Assembly (NCBI GenBank): GCA_003279655.1
Contig: QCHI01000004.1
Span: forward strand, 1 to 64,000
Length of the DNA: 64,000 nucleotides
From: Prochlorococcus sp. AG-402-A21
GTDB taxonomy: Bacteria; Cyanobacteriota; Cyanobacteriia; PCC-6307; Cyanobiaceae
Direction: 5' to 3'
Below are positions 9,951 to 63,216 of this stretch, piece by piece; positions within the stretch are counted from its first letter, which is position 1, and the number at the start of each line of letters is the position of its first letter. Position numbers and translations under genes: made by a program. The notes below the pieces were generated by a model. That model worked only from the letters and a program-made list of their open reading frames with translations, ran no database searches and was not told where the DNA came from.

Positions 9951-10397
9951 ATGGATTCAAATAGCTCTTGCTCGTCCTCGAAGGAAGGCTCATCAACATT
10001 ATTAATTCCATTAGTCAAAGAAACTATTTCAGCAGGTTTTCCTTCTCCTGCGGAAGATTACATAGAGCTCGGTATCGATCTAAATAAATACTTAATCAAA
10101 AATCCAATAAGTACTTTCTTTCTACGTGTAAGTGGTAATTCAATGAATAATGCAGGAATTTATAATAATGATTTATTAATAATAGATCGCAGTATAAACC
10201 CAAAACCTGGACATATTGTAGTTGCTCTCTTGGATGGAGAATTTACGTTGAAAAGACTTATAAAAAAGCAAGATTCTTATTACCTAAAAGCAGATAAAGA
10301 AAATTATCCAGCAATAAACTTATATGAATATATAGATATACAAATATGGGGAGTCGCTATTTATTCGATACATGAACTAAAAAAACAAAAAGTCTAA
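9951..10397 (+). CDS. umuD: UmuD-type S24 peptidase, polymerase V accessory subunit
   Basis: A 148-residue LexA/UmuD-fold protein. Self-cleavage, aided by RecA filaments, yields UmuD', which binds UmuC to form DNA polymerase V. The likely cleavage site is the Ala28-Gly29 pair in ISAGFPSPAEDY. The catalytic serine is Ser64 in LRVSGNSMNNAGI and the general-base lysine is Lys101 in GEFTLKRL, giving the Ser-Lys dyad at usual spacing. The stop is 4 bases from the umuC start. A LexA-like box precedes the gene. Confidence 0.92.
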   Translation: MDSNSSCSSSKEGSSTLLIPLVKETISAGFPSPAEDYIELGIDLNKYLIKNPISTFFLRVSGNSMNNAGIYNNDLLIIDRSINPKPGHIVVALLDGEFTLKRLIKKQDSYYLKADKENYPAINLYEYIDIQIWGVAIYSIHELKKQKV

Positions 10398-10400
10398 ATT

Positions 10401-11678
10401 ATGTCCAAAGTAATACTTCAAATTGATGGGAACAATTTTTATGCCTCGTGTGAACAAATGATCGATCCTTCAATAAAAGGAAAGGGTTTAGTTGTCCTTT
10501 CGAATAATGATGGATGCATAATAGCTCGCAATTCAGAGGCTAGAAAAATGGGAATTCCTATGGGAAAACCGTATTTCAAGTTAAAAAATAAGCTGACTCA
10601 ATTAAATATAAATGTGAGAAGTTCAAATTACGAGCTTTACGGTGATATAAGTAATCGATTAATGCAGCTACTGAGAAAAAATTGCGAAGAACTGGAAATC
10701 TACTCTATAGATGAAGCATTTGGAACTATAAAACGTCCAAAAGGAAAGTGCTTATATCAATGGGGAAAAGATCTAAGAGCTTTAGTTTATCAAAACATAG
10801 GAATACCAATATCTATCGGTATTGGTGAGACAAAAGTTCTATCAAAGATTTCTAATCATTTAGCAAAAAAAATACAAAGTAATTCCGGTATATTTGATAT
10901 AGGTATTATTCAAAATAAAGACCCTTATCTTAATCAAATCAAAGTAGATAAAGTTTGGGGTATAGGCAAAAGAATGTCGATATGGCTAAAAAGTAAAGAG
11001 ATAACTAATGCACGAGAACTTAGAGATATGTCAAGCGAAAAAATCAAAGGAAAGTATGGTTTAGTTGGTCTACGCATTCAAAGTGAATTAAAAGGAAACC
11101 TCTGTATCCCTATAAAAGAAACAACAACAGATCGAAAAGAAATCTGCGTAAGCAGGAGTTTTTCATATCCCGTAGATAACTTAGAAGATTTGAGCCAAGC
11201 AATCATTAAATATGTTTTAATAGCAAGCACTAAATTGCGAAAATACAATCAATTATCATCAGCTATTACAGTTTTTATGAATACAAATACTCATTCAAAA
11301 GATTTATTCAGAAGTGAAGCAACTGGAAAAATAAGCGTTCCAACCTCTAACTCAAAAATAATAATTGAAAAAAGTCTATCGCTAGCAAAAGAAATTTATA
11401 AACCTTATAAAAATTTTATAAAGGCTGGTGTGATACTGCATAAACTTCAAAGTGATCAATATAAACAAAACCTACTATTTGATGCACAAAATATTCATGA
11501 AGAATTAGACACACAGAGACTAGATAATGTAATAGATAATATTAATTCAAAAAATGGTATAGATACAATAAATTGGGGATCATCAATAATGAAAAATGAA
11601 TGGAGACCACGAAGGGAAAAACTATCTAGTATAAAGACAACAAATATGGAAAATATTCCAATTATATATGCTAATTAG
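10401..11678 (+). CDS. umuC: Y-family DNA polymerase V catalytic subunit UmuC
   Basis: A 425-residue Y-family translesion polymerase. The palm motif ILQIDGNNFYASCEQ (about residues 5-19) and catalytic SIDEAFG (about 102-108) carry the metal-binding acidic residues. The fingers segment NDGCIIARNSEARKMGIPMG is typical of UmuC, and the helix-hairpin-helix is at KVWGIGKRMSIWL (about 184-196). The C-terminal part includes a DUF4113-like ending (NWGSSIMKNEWRPRREKLSS). It allows error-prone synthesis past UV lesions. Operon with umuD. Confidence 0.94.
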   Translation: MSKVILQIDGNNFYASCEQMIDPSIKGKGLVVLSNNDGCIIARNSEARKMGIPMGKPYFKLKNKLTQLNINVRSSNYELYGDISNRLMQLLRKNCEELEIYSIDEAFGTIKRPKGKCLYQWGKDLRALVYQNIGIPISIGIGETKVLSKISNHLAKKIQSNSGIFDIGIIQNKDPYLNQIKVDKVWGIGKRMSIWLKSKEITNARELRDMSSEKIKGKYGLVGLRIQSELKGNLCIPIKETTTDRKEICVSRSFSYPVDNLEDLSQAIIKYVLIASTKLRKYNQLSSAITVFMNTNTHSKDLFRSEATGKISVPTSNSKIIIEKSLSLAKEIYKPYKNFIKAGVILHKLQSDQYKQNLLFDAQNIHEELDTQRLDNVIDNINSKNGIDTINWGSSIMKNEWRPRREKLSSIKTTNMENIPIIYAN

Positions 11679-48231: not shown

Positions 48232-48567
48232 ATGTCGGAGACCAAAACCCTAAATGTTCTTCTAGCCCCAGAAGGTCAATTACAGGGTAATGGACAATTA
48301 AGAGAATCCTTTCATGAGAGAAGGAGTCGAAAAGGAGAGGATTATCCTATGTGGTTCTTAAATTCTTCATTAGTTAACAAATTCAAAATCACTGAAGAAG
48401 AAGGTTATGAAGCAGTTATAGCGGAAGATTCAACAACGATTGCTTGGTTAAAACTTCGATTTGGTGGAGAAAGATTAACCAAAACATTAGATATTGAAGA
48501 GCTTTGGCAACATGCAAGTCAGCCCCCTGAACCTCCAGAAAGAAGAGACATAACACCGCCTAAATAG
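48232..48567 (+). CDS. Conserved hypothetical protein upstream of FdC2
   Basis: A 111-residue soluble protein starting MSETKTLNVLLAPEGQLQGN. It has a mixed alpha/beta core (VIAEDSTTIAWLKLRFGGERLTKTLDIEELWQHA) and a proline-rich tail (QPPEPPERRDITPPK). Its stop is 7 bases before the ferredoxin start, so the two are very probably co-translated. No motif gives a function; a partner of the ferredoxin is possible. Confidence 0.75.
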   Translation: MSETKTLNVLLAPEGQLQGNGQLRESFHERRSRKGEDYPMWFLNSSLVNKFKITEEEGYEAVIAEDSTTIAWLKLRFGGERLTKTLDIEELWQHASQPPEPPERRDITPPK

Positions 48568-48574
48568 ATATTCA

Positions 48575-48961
48575 ATGAAACCAATTCACCAGATAACTAT
48601 TCATCATAAACAAGAGGGAAAAACATATACCTTTGATGTCCCTGAAGGTGAGTACATATTGAGAAATTTTGAATCAAAAGACGAACATGGACAAATTATC
48701 GGAGACACATTGCCATTCTCTTGCAGAAATGGATGTTGTTCAGAATGCGCAGTTAAAATAATTTCAGGAGAGATGGATCAACAAGCTTGTATTGGTCTAT
48801 CAAAAGAGAAGAGGGATGAGGGTTACGGTTTGTTATGCGTTTCAAAAGCTATTGGACCATTAGAATGCGTTACACAAGATGAGGACGAAGTATATAACGC
48901 TCAATTTGGAAAATATTTCAAAGGATTAGAGACACAAGCCGGCAATCCATTTGATATTTGA
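48575..48961 (+). CDS. [2Fe-2S] ferredoxin, FdC2-like
   Basis: A 128-residue plant-type ferredoxin. The cluster ligands are Cys50, Cys55, Cys58 and Cys88 (C-x4-C-x2-C-x29-C), in FSCRNGCCSECAVKI and YGLLCVS. It differs from photosynthetic PetF by a C-terminal extension of about 38 residues with TQDEDEVYNAQFGKYF, the pattern I associate with plant FdC2 ferredoxins. FdC2 mutants in plants are impaired in chlorophyll synthesis. The gene is convergent with acsF, 15 bases apart. Confidence 0.88.
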   Translation: MKPIHQITIHHKQEGKTYTFDVPEGEYILRNFESKDEHGQIIGDTLPFSCRNGCCSECAVKIISGEMDQQACIGLSKEKRDEGYGLLCVSKAIGPLECVTQDEDEVYNAQFGKYFKGLETQAGNPFDI

Positions 48962-48976
48962 TTTATCTAAATAGTT

Positions 48977-50080
48977 TTACTTATCTGTCCAAAAATTTAA
49001 AATATCTTGGCCAGTAAAATTAACATTTTTATCATATCTCAATGCATTTGTCTTCTCCATCGGAAGCGCAAATTGCTTAAATATTAAAGTAGCAAATTTC
49101 ACAAATTTAACTGGTTTTGTTAAACCTTTAGCACCTACAAATGCTCTGAAAGATTCAATAATTTTATTTCTCAAATCCCAAAATTTATTATCATCAAGAT
49201 TAAAAACCCAAGGAAAGGCATTCTTCGATGTGTGGTTTGTTCTTTTTATAACTTCCTCATCAAATTCCTTTGGATCAATACCAAGCAATTCATAAAACTC
49301 ACCCCTTTCACAAACTGTCAAAGTGTGAGTAAGGAAAACACTCCACAAGAAGAAACGACTTAATAACTTGCCTCTAAATCCTTTAGTAATTCCTGGCCAA
49401 CATCTCATCATCACAGTAAAACAGTCACCATGTCTGTTCTCGTCTTGACACCATGGTTCAAAGAAATCAAAAAGCGGAGCAAAAGCCTGATCTGGATTAG
49501 CCTTAAGGTGCCTATCCATCAAGATGTATCTCCAATACCCAATTTTTTCTGAAAGATAAACAGAATATATAACCCAACTAATTGGGAACCAAGTCGCTGC
49601 TCTTTTACCGCCTAAATGAGGGAGATCCACTTCAATACCCTCTGCGACTAATGCTCTGCTAAGAAAGCCTGCGTGTCTAGCTTCGTCTCTAGCTAAAAAC
49701 TGAAATAGTTTGCCAAGATCCCTATTTCCCTCTTTCTTTAAACGATTTGAAATCTCCTTGAAGAGTAAGAATCCAGAAAACTCTGAGATAACTGATCTAA
49801 CTAAATAACTCTCATAAGTCTCTTTAGCCTTCTGAGGCAATTCTTGCAATCTATCTAGACTTGCCTTCCTATCAAAATGGGTACAGTTATAATCTGCTTT
49901 CATTTCTGAGAGCATTGCTTCAAACTCTTCACGCGCATCAGTTAATTCTGTCTTAGCTGCTTTTTTAAACTCAGTAACGTAAAAACGAGGAGTTAAAAGA
50001 TTTTCATCTAAATGTGGCGGCAACTCATTAGTTCCGCGTGTATCAACTCTTAGTTTTGGTGAAGAAGCTGTTGCGGTCAT
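48977..50080 (-). CDS. acsF: Mg-protoporphyrin IX monomethyl ester oxidative cyclase
   Basis: A 367-residue di-iron cyclase (AcsF/CrdI/CHL27) that forms ring E of chlorophyll using O2 and electrons from reduced ferredoxin. Di-iron ligands lie in SEFSGFLLFKEISNRL (about residues 105-120), LARDEARHAGFLSRAL (about 129-144) and the later CQDENRHGDCF (about 212-222). Length is usual for cyanobacteria. A FdC2-type ferredoxin gene ends 15 bases away on the other strand. The 222 bases upstream to carB hold nothing I can identify. Confidence 0.97.
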   Translation of the reverse strand: MTATASSPKLRVDTRGTNELPPHLDENLLTPRFYVTEFKKAAKTELTDAREEFEAMLSEMKADYNCTHFDRKASLDRLQELPQKAKETYESYLVRSVISEFSGFLLFKEISNRLKKEGNRDLGKLFQFLARDEARHAGFLSRALVAEGIEVDLPHLGGKRAATWFPISWVIYSVYLSEKIGYWRYILMDRHLKANPDQAFAPLFDFFEPWCQDENRHGDCFTVMMRCWPGITKGFRGKLLSRFFLWSVFLTHTLTVCERGEFYELLGIDPKEFDEEVIKRTNHTSKNAFPWVFNLDDNKFWDLRNKIIESFRAFVGAKGLTKPVKFVKFATLIFKQFALPMEKTNALRYDKNVNFTGQDILNFWTDK

Positions 50081-58775: not shown

Positions 58776-60110
58776 ATGAAAGAAGAAAAAGGAAAAGAAA
58801 ATAATTCACTTGAATATGAGACTAATAATCTCATTAGATCTTCTTTTAATGAGAAAGAAAGTGTAAAAGACATAGAGAATATTGCTTCAAAACCCTCCAA
58901 CCAATTAACTAATGGACTATTAGGTTGGTATTCGGTCTCAAGCAGCGAGTCGGTTAAGGATGGCAAATTAAATCATTTCACGATTTATAATGAACCACTT
59001 GTTTTGTATCGAGATAGAGAGGGTATTGTTCGATGTGTAAAAGATGTATGCCCTCATAGAGGGGCTTCGTTTTTAGGCGGTGAAGTTATTAATGGCCAAC
59101 TTGTTTGTCCTTATCATGGTGCAAGATTCTCCTCGCAAGGTAGTTGTACAAATCTAGACAGAATAACTTGTCAACATATTATTGATTCTAATTATGATAA
59201 TTATGCAAAAAGCATAAAGCTTTTCCAGTATCCTTGTGTAGAAAAAGAAGGCTATATATACATTTACTATACTGGAACACCTCTTGCAAATATTGAAGAC
59301 TTTGAAATAAAATCATCCATTAATAGCCTCCTTCCTGATTCATACGGATTTCCTTCGTTAGAATATGAATATGAAGAGGTATATGTAGATTTCAAAGCAG
59401 ATTGGGCAAGAATTATTGAAAATCATCTGGATATATTACATGTATTCTGGATGCACGGAGACACTATCCCAGACAAGAATGTAAACCGAGAAACTATAAC
59501 TAGTTTCAATCAAAAAATAAAACGAGATCATAGGCAGATTGAAAGTATTTATTCATATAAAACAAATGGTCAAAATGAGTTTATAAGAATAAAATTCGTA
59601 CCTCCAGGAAGAATTTTTATATATAAAGGCTCACCAGAAAGTACTAGATATATTCAAGTTCTTGATCATATTCCCCTTGGAAATAATAAAGCAAGGGTCA
59701 TCGTAAGACATTATAGGAAATTTCTAAAAAATAAATTATTTACGAACTTAGTACTATTTAGCCATCTACAAAGAAAAACTTTTTATAAGATTTTTAGTGA
59801 GGATTATTTGGTTTTAAAAACCCAAACATTTAATGATCAGATGGGATACATACAAAAGGACAATGTTAAATTATTGGGAGAAGACAAAATGGTTCAATAT
59901 TACTGGGATTGGCTCCAGAATGCCTTAAATAAAGAAAAGCCATGGGACTTACATCCGACTAATTCATTAACTAACTCAGTCCATGAAGATAGAGGGATGC
60001 AATATCCACCAGAGAATCCAAATATGGCAATAAAAAATAATAGAAAGATCCTTATTAAACTTTTAACTAGATTATTATTCCCAATAAGTTTCATTCTATT
60101 GTTAATTTAA
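58776..60110 (+). CDS. Rieske-type oxygenase, pheophorbide a oxygenase-like
   Basis: A 444-residue Rieske non-heme iron oxygenase. Rieske ligands are Cys92, His94, Cys111 and His114 (VCPHRGASFLGG and VCPYHGARFSS). The mononuclear iron site is ENHLDILHVFWMH with Asp219, His222 and His227. The last about 25 residues are hydrophobic and would anchor it in a membrane. Overall build is that of the PAO/TIC55/CAO group acting on tetrapyrroles or other hydrophobic substrates. The exact substrate is not known. It needs electrons from ferredoxin or another donor. Confidence 0.88.
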   Translation: MKEEKGKENNSLEYETNNLIRSSFNEKESVKDIENIASKPSNQLTNGLLGWYSVSSSESVKDGKLNHFTIYNEPLVLYRDREGIVRCVKDVCPHRGASFLGGEVINGQLVCPYHGARFSSQGSCTNLDRITCQHIIDSNYDNYAKSIKLFQYPCVEKEGYIYIYYTGTPLANIEDFEIKSSINSLLPDSYGFPSLEYEYEEVYVDFKADWARIIENHLDILHVFWMHGDTIPDKNVNRETITSFNQKIKRDHRQIESIYSYKTNGQNEFIRIKFVPPGRIFIYKGSPESTRYIQVLDHIPLGNNKARVIVRHYRKFLKNKLFTNLVLFSHLQRKTFYKIFSEDYLVLKTQTFNDQMGYIQKDNVKLLGEDKMVQYYWDWLQNALNKEKPWDLHPTNSLTNSVHEDRGMQYPPENPNMAIKNNRKILIKLLTRLLFPISFILLLI

Positions 60111-62157: not shown

Positions 62158-63216
62158 GTGCAGACCTACGGGAATCCTAGCGTTACCTATGACTGGTACG
62201 CGGGTAATTCAGGGACGGCCAATCGCTCCGGAAAATTCATCGCTGCGCATGCTGCCCATGCTGGTTTGATGATGTTCTGGGCAGGTGCGTTCACTCTATT
62301 TGAGCTAGCTCGTTATGACTCATCCGTTGCGATGGGTAATCAAAACTTGATCTGCTTGCCTCACCTTGCACAACTTGGAATAGGTGGAATCGAAAACGGT
62401 GTAATAACTGAGCCTTACGGTTGCACAGTTATTGCTGTACTTCACCTAATTTTCTCTGGTGTTCTTGGTGCTGGTGGAATTCTTCACTCCACAAGATATG
62501 ACGGTGATTTAGGAAACTATCCTGAAGGAAGTCGTCCTAAAAAGTTTGACTTCGAGTGGGACGATCCAGACAAACTTACATTTATTCTTGGTCATCACCT
62601 TATTTTCCTAGGTTTGGCTAACATTCAATTCGTTGAATGGGCTCAATATCATGGTATTTGGGATACTGCTTTAGGAGCTACTCGTACAGTTTCTTACAAC
62701 CTTGATCTAGGAATGATCTGGAATCACCAGGCTGATTTCTTACAAATCAACAGCTTGGAAGATGTTATGGGCGGTCATGCTTTCTTGGCATTCTTCCAAA
62801 TAATTGGTGGTGCATTCCATATCATCACTAAGCAATTCGGTGAGTACACAGAATTCAAAGGTAAAGGACTTCTATCAGCAGAAGCTGTCCTTTCATACTC
62901 TCTAGCTGGTGTTGGCTACTGTGCACTTGTTGCAGCTTTCTGGAGTTCAACAAACACAACTGTCTACTCAACAGAATTCTTTGGAGATGTACTTCAACTC
63001 AAGTTTGATTTCGCTCCTTATTTTGTTGATACCGACTCGTCACTAGCAACTGGAGCTCATACAGCAAGAGCTTGGTTAGCTAATGTTCACTTCTATCTTG
63101 GCTTCTTCTTCATTCAGGGACATCTCTGGCATGCATTAAGGGCTATGGGATTTGACTTCAGACGCGTAGGTAAAGCGTTCGACAATATGGAAAACGCAAA
63201 AATCACTAACGGTTAA
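62158..63216 (+). CDS. pcb: Chlorophyll a/b-binding light-harvesting protein Pcb
   Basis: A 352-residue six-helix antenna protein of the Pcb/IsiA/CP43 family, the main light-harvesting protein of Prochlorococcus, binding divinyl chlorophyll a and b around photosystem I or II. It starts MQTYGNPSVTYDWYAGNSG at a GTG, the family N-terminus. Conserved His residues (FIAAHAAHAGLM, VLHLIFSGVLGAGG, LGHHLIFLGLANIQFV, GGHAFLAFFQIIGGAFHI) and C-terminal FFIQGHLWHALRAMGFDFRR are present. The large CP43-type lumenal loop is absent, as expected. Codon use is richer in C-ending codons (ttc, aac, gac) than neighbours, fitting high expression. The exact Pcb paralogue is not determined. Confidence 0.95.
   Translation: MQTYGNPSVTYDWYAGNSGTANRSGKFIAAHAAHAGLMMFWAGAFTLFELARYDSSVAMGNQNLICLPHLAQLGIGGIENGVITEPYGCTVIAVLHLIFSGVLGAGGILHSTRYDGDLGNYPEGSRPKKFDFEWDDPDKLTFILGHHLIFLGLANIQFVEWAQYHGIWDTALGATRTVSYNLDLGMIWNHQADFLQINSLEDVMGGHAFLAFFQIIGGAFHIITKQFGEYTEFKGKGLLSAEAVLSYSLAGVGYCALVAAFWSSTNTTVYSTEFFGDVLQLKFDFAPYFVDTDSSLATGAHTARAWLANVHFYLGFFFIQGHLWHALRAMGFDFRRVGKAFDNMENAKITNG

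Follow-up and report, generated by a model that had tools for sequence, protein, structure and literature searches.

AcsF closes the fifth ring of chlorophyll, and in other oxygenic phototrophs it needs the helper protein Ycf54, whose role in the cyclase is debated as that of a stabilizer, a chaperone or a catalytic partner. In PNAS in 2021, Chen et al. reportedly presented the CycI substitution D219G as a mimic of the natural evolution of the AcsF proteins of low-light Prochlorococcus, "which lack Ycf54"; they are said to have argued that these AcsFs are Ycf54-independent, a view that counts against the cyclase module proposed below.

Seven residues of Ycf54 (Slr1780) have been studied in Synechocystis, where R82A abolished the interaction with AcsF and removed nearly all chlorophyll, and D39A and F40A also lost the interaction, with a milder phenotype than R82A (PMC5317394). 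The Asp predicted by AF3 to pair with R82 is AcsF D216 (PMC13297055). The auxiliary subunit of the alphaproteobacterial AcsF, BciE, is likewise a small protein (PMC13297055). Under low oxygen, the chlAII-ho2-hemN-desF cluster is controlled by ChlR, and strains NATL2A, NATL1A, SS120 and MIT9313 are listed with ChlAII only (PMC4500134, Table 1). In barley, the ferredoxin FdC2 (VirK) donates electrons to the cyclase (PMC8408499).

The acsF locus and its AcsF lineage

The locus analyzed here lies in a 64,000-nucleotide stretch of DNA (the window) from a Prochlorococcus genome of 1.67 Mb in 41 contigs. It comprises a gene for a 111-residue protein, an FdC2-type ferredoxin gene and acsF (Table 1). 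Re-reading the ORFs confirmed the coordinates, spacing and orientation given by the first-pass annotation, including the convergence of the ferredoxin gene with acsF, with 15 nt between their stop codons. The gap between the 111-residue ORF and FdC2 is consistent with co-transcription. Promoter and terminator scans gave no signal above chance level.

Table 1. Features of the acsF locus in window coordinates
Feature	Position	Strand	Basis
111-aa divergent Ycf54 homolog (proposed Ycf54-II), putative AcsF-II auxiliary subunit/assembly factor	48232..48567	+	profiles, AF2 model
R76 codon, aligns with Synechocystis Ycf54 R82, in motif WLKLRFGG	48457..48459	+	profile alignment
7-nt gap, 111-aa ORF to FdC2	48568..48574	+	sequence
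FdC2-type [2Fe-2S] ferredoxin, 128 aa, C-terminal extension, 7-aa insertion before first cluster Cys	48575..48961	+	sequence, alignment
acsF (AcsF-II)	48977..50080	-	TIGR02029/PRK13654, single genome match, tree

The window AcsF matched TIGR02029 with 342 bits (cut-off 192.5) and PRK13654 with 454 (cut-off 391), carries the diiron motifs DEARH and DENRH, and is the single AcsF match of its genome. We placed it in a tree of 57 AcsF sequences. Here and below, low-light-type denotes genera that have the 111-residue gene but no canonical Ycf54 and whose genomes measure 1.6–2.6 Mb; the ecotype implied by this label is one that we infer from named members, such as MIT 0701 of LLIV, and from the ChlAII-only listing of NATL2A, NATL1A, SS120 and MIT9313. 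The low-light-type AcsFs formed one clade (100/100), and together with the second AcsF of Synechococcus/Cyanobium they occupied one side of a 100/100 branch; we refer to this lineage as AcsF-II. The canonical ChlAI rows lay on one side of another 100/100 branch, with ChlAII between ChlAI and AcsF-II. The window AcsF thus falls on the side of ChlAII (CycII/AcsFII), the cyclase of the chlAII-ho2-hemN(-desF) low-O2 cluster, apart from ChlAI. Three ChlAII rows of the tree adjoin heme oxygenase and hemN genes. In contrast to ChlAII of that cluster, the AcsF-II of the low-light type is the sole AcsF of its genome and is encoded away from ho2/hemN, and its locus includes a Ycf54-like gene. The AcsF split itself was already known, since ChlAII alone had been assigned to NATL2A, SS120 and MIT9313 (PMC4500134). 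The Asp equivalent to D216 was present in 57/57 AcsF sequences; its invariance may not reflect Ycf54 binding because the residue sits in an ENRHGD motif beside the diiron site.

Relationship of the 111-residue protein to Ycf54

The 111-residue protein had been annotated as being of unknown function. Single-sequence searches of Pfam, NCBIfam and PDB sequences with it returned nothing significant, and no published description of it was found in the literature searched. Against PF10674 (Ycf54) it scored 13.3 bits, below the Pfam curated cut-off of 25, and it was the only PF10674 match in the whole window genome even at E ≤ 10. That match, with E 0.33, is not counted as evidence by itself because chance matches at E 0.1–1 occurred in whole genomes, including those of E. 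coli and Lactococcus. Profile comparisons, on the other hand, identify the protein as a highly diverged Ycf54 homolog. An hhalign comparison of a profile of 41 relatives of the 111-residue protein with a profile of 25 canonical Ycf54s gave a probability of 95.4, an E value of 1.8e-8 and a score of 49.3 over 72 columns, whereas none of 100 column shuffles scored above 21.9 and the profile in reverse gave 10.1. Sub-profiles built from low-light-type sequences only or from Synechococcus/Cyanobium sequences only gave 94.4 and 94.7 per cent, respectively. In six-frame translations of the collected loci, an HMM of six canonical Ycf54 sequences ranked the 111-residue proteins immediately below all true Ycf54s; in the reverse search, the HMM of the 111-residue family recovered canonical Ycf54s at E values of 2.5e-7 to 3e-3. 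The ORF is under purifying selection (dN/dS ∼0.1–0.2), and no relative of its product was found in viral contigs and phage genomes.

Predicted structures agreed with the profiles. The AlphaFold2 (AF2) model of the window protein, built with 51 relatives, had a pLDDT of 91.4 and a pTM of 0.81. In a Foldseek search with this model against 350,542 PDB chains, the best five matches were Ycf54 (3jsr, 3hze, 5m2u), each with probability 1.00; VIA Z scores were 8.0–9.4 for Ycf54 structures and 5.7 for the next unrelated chain. For a second AF2 model, of the homolog from Synechococcus sp. ATX 2A4 (pLDDT 91.8), the first eight Foldseek matches were Ycf54, with Z scores of 8.5–9.3 compared to 4.9 for the next unrelated chain. 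Both models contain the four-stranded sheet flanked by helices of Ycf54 (rmsd 2.8–3.4 over ∼90 residues), and between them they matched the crystal structures 5m2u, 5m2r, 5m2p, 3hze and 3jsr. UreE, PII-like and acylphosphatase folds also matched the models, at Z scores of 4–5.7, as would be expected if the resemblance were merely that of a common alpha-beta ferredoxin-like arrangement with no homology to Ycf54. We regard this explanation as very improbable: the Ycf54 entries stand far above other folds in both models, and the independent sequence profiles agree, with conserved residues in register.

The profile alignment equates Ycf54 A9, E22, E26 and R82 with A12, E25, E29 and R76 of the 111-residue protein. 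Among 51 sequences of the family, E25, E29 and R76 are invariant and A12 is nearly so; F13 and D39 of Ycf54 are not kept, and F40 is partly kept. At the D39/F40 sites the window protein has P39 and M40, and most low-light-type sequences read V-[PA]-F-W. By alignment, then, the protein retains the most important AcsF-docking residue of Ycf54. The two proteins are alike in length and in strand-helix order, and both co-occur with AcsF, but they share only ∼20% identity; the 111-residue motifs are GQLxGxGQLRE and WLxLRFGG, whereas canonical Ycf54 has FLxxEEPLxEVLxER and FMKLRLE. The 111-residue gene belongs to the acsF locus, whereas the high-light-type loci examined have canonical ycf54 at another site. 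Taken together, the sequence profiles and the two AF2 models make homology to Ycf54 well supported. As judged from its sequence, the protein is a divergent homolog rather than canonical Ycf54, and we do not file it as the latter because it falls below the Pfam cut-off and has lost D39. In sequence and fold it matches Ycf54; with BciE it shares the description of a small, here putative, auxiliary protein for AcsF.

Distribution and gene order of the cyclase genes

We analyzed 271 genomes of the family, each at least 90% complete. The 111-residue gene was present in 77, an AcsF closely related to that of the window in 96, and canonical Ycf54 over its cut-off in 226. All low-light-type genomes with the 111-residue gene (32/32) lacked Ycf54 over the cut-off, and all 32 carried AcsF-II; a single AcsF was found in all 17 of these that were searched for AcsF copies. 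Seven high-light-type genomes (genus g29) carried only the other AcsF, and canonical Ycf54 occurs in most genomes of that genus. Both sets, AcsF-I with Ycf54 and AcsF-II with the 111-residue protein, coexist in some Synechococcus/Cyanobium genera. Overall, AcsF-II was found in 76/77 genomes with the 111-residue gene versus 20/194 without it, a difference whose Fisher value of 4e-47 overstates independence because the genomes are related. That the low-light lineages carry a Ycf54 homolog, diverged beyond the reach of the usual family search, is well supported.

The 20 genomes with AcsF-II and no recognizable 111-residue gene all have canonical Ycf54, which could serve AcsF-II there. At six AcsF-II loci without the gene, a hidden divergent copy was considered, but the family HMM found none within ∼5 kb. 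The loci L084–L090 (genomes G116, G121, G241, G248, G073 and G064) combine acsF-II, no nearby 111-residue gene by HMM and a retained canonical Ycf54; the latter may work with both AcsFs in these genomes.

The order 111-residue gene, FdC2 and convergent acsF-II was found in 63/63 low-light-type loci, with identical orientation and 11–171 bp between the aligned ends of the 111-residue gene and FdC2, even though identity of the 111-residue protein falls to ∼47% among these loci; such conservation is far beyond chance. Hence, the gene order on which the first-pass annotation had built holds throughout the whole low-light radiation, but it does not extend to other cyanobacteria. The pairing of the 111-residue gene with acsF-II is deeper and reaches Synechococcus/Cyanobium, without FdC2. 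There, in 13/17 loci, acsF-II is convergent with the 111-residue gene at a distance of 0.7–6 kb, and neighbors of acsF-II include genes for an ArsR-type regulator, a desaturase, a GT8 transferase, an ADO homolog, heme oxygenase and HemN. With its heme oxygenase, hemN and desaturase genes, this cluster resembles chlAII-ho2-hemN-desF, and the ArsR-type gene is a candidate for a low-O2 regulator replacing ChlR. Four Synechococcus/Cyanobium loci (L082, L083, L134 and L207) have a second ADO-like protein (PF11266) and a HetL-like pentapeptide protein near acsF-II.

The ferredoxin and a proposed cyclase module

The FdC2 assignment of the ferredoxin was borne out by the cluster spacing C-x4-C-x2-C-x29-C, read from the translation as C-RNGC-C-SE-C-x29-C, and by the alignment, in which the C-terminal extension is common to FdC2s, whereas two other ferredoxins of the window genome lack it. 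The window FdC2 shares the spacing and the extension with FdC2/VirK/Fed2 (Sll1382) but differs from it in its tail (GNPFDI, not GLPLDED), in a seven-residue insertion and in its linkage to acsF-II. The tail (window 48935–48958) reads GNPFD[IML] in the low-light type and is GLPLDED-like in Synechococcus and other cyanobacteria. The insertion, ESKDEHGQIIGDTLPF, in the region 48668–48730 of the window, precedes the first cluster Cys and occurs in the window lineage and one sister genus; it is absent from all other aligned FdC2s. Near the [2Fe-2S] loop, it may alter partner choice or potential.

Nearly all of the cyanobacterial genomes sampled carry a single FdC2 gene, and its presence at the acsF locus is confined to the low-light-type Prochlorococcus lineages; the high-light-type and Synechococcus loci examined have it in a different neighborhood, near genes that by eye resemble htpG and dnaK. 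Since FdC2 is elsewhere in the others, the simplest reading is that it arrived late at the acsF-II locus of the low-light-type lineage.

We consider it likely that the locus is a complete alternative cyclase module, in which AcsF-II, the 111-residue Ycf54-II and FdC2 as the likely donor act together, derived from low-O2-type clusters; a module of this composition is a probable trait of the low-light-type Prochlorococcus. AcsF-II would be the catalytic diiron subunit. The 111-residue paralog would dock on it by way of the conserved Arg in the WLKLRFGG motif and would promote its folding, accumulation or continued activity, in the way that Ycf54 supports CycI. The suggestion of the first-pass annotation that a helper protein for AcsF might be encoded here is thereby strongly supported by the profiles and by the matches of the AF2 models to PDB entries. 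FdC2 would probably supply the electrons, which fits barley VirK, and might do so as the dedicated donor that the first-pass annotation suggested; against this counts that the two genes are adjacent in one lineage only. As a whole, the interpretation of that annotation is partly supported and extended. The module would descend from the AcsF-II/Ycf54-II pair in the low-O2-type clusters of Synechococcus/Cyanobium, and we infer that its regime is one of low O2; low-light-type Prochlorococcus would have retained the pair while canonical AcsF-I and Ycf54 disappeared, with FdC2 moving into the locus. On balance, we lean toward the reading that low-light Prochlorococcus did not lose Ycf54 but swapped AcsF-I and Ycf54 for a microoxic-type AcsF-II and Ycf54-II and recruited FdC2 as donor.

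A different account would make the 111-residue protein a Ycf54 relative with a new job, serving FdC2, heme oxygenase, ADO or a desaturase, with the low-light AcsF independent of Ycf54 by virtue of position 219, which we take to be the Synechocystis suppressor site D219G. The low-light AcsFs indeed have N or T, not D, at this position, the 111-residue gene adjoins ADO and heme oxygenase genes in Synechococcus/Cyanobium, and D39 of Ycf54 is lost. Position 219, however, is also K in ChlAII and N in the AcsF-II of Synechococcus/Cyanobium. A residue other than Asp does not by itself mean independence, because Synechocystis ChlAII, with its K, still interacts with Ycf54 (PMC4500134), and we rejected the position as a marker on this account. 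Moreover, all 51 sequences of the 111-residue family keep the Arg on which AcsF binding depends, and the only partners beside the gene at its Prochlorococcus loci are acsF-II and FdC2; a new job therefore seems improbable. Somewhat less doubtful, though still unlikely, is that the proximity of FdC2 is incidental, a product of genome streamlining, with FdC2 a general multi-task ferredoxin and AcsF also using PetF. In favor of this, the high-light-type and Synechococcus loci examined have FdC2 at another site, and recombinant barley cyclase is active with ferredoxin as well (PMC7570240; Stuart 2020 via PMC8408499). Against it, adjacency is kept in all 63 loci over deep divergence, and in barley vir-k mutants the cyclase step is affected though canonical ferredoxin is present (PMC8408499).

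If the module reading is true, the published case of a naturally evolved Ycf54-independent cyclase would reflect a missed homolog, and a Ycf54 paralog beside acsF would remove or weaken low-light Prochlorococcus as a natural Ycf54-free case. A second, very different Ycf54–AcsF pair would also be of use for mapping the interface. The Prochlorococcus cyclase would be tied to a low-oxygen gene set, a connection relevant to the idea that poorly oxygenated water was where the lineage evolved. The gene order also associates FdC2 with AcsF in cyanobacteria, as the genetics of plants does.

Elsewhere in the window are genes for a Pcb-type chlorophyll a/b antenna protein (62158–63216; TIGR03041), a Rieske-type oxygenase with only weak NCBIfam matches, possibly of the PAO/CAO group (58776–60110), and a UmuD/UmuC-like translesion polymerase pair (9951–11678).
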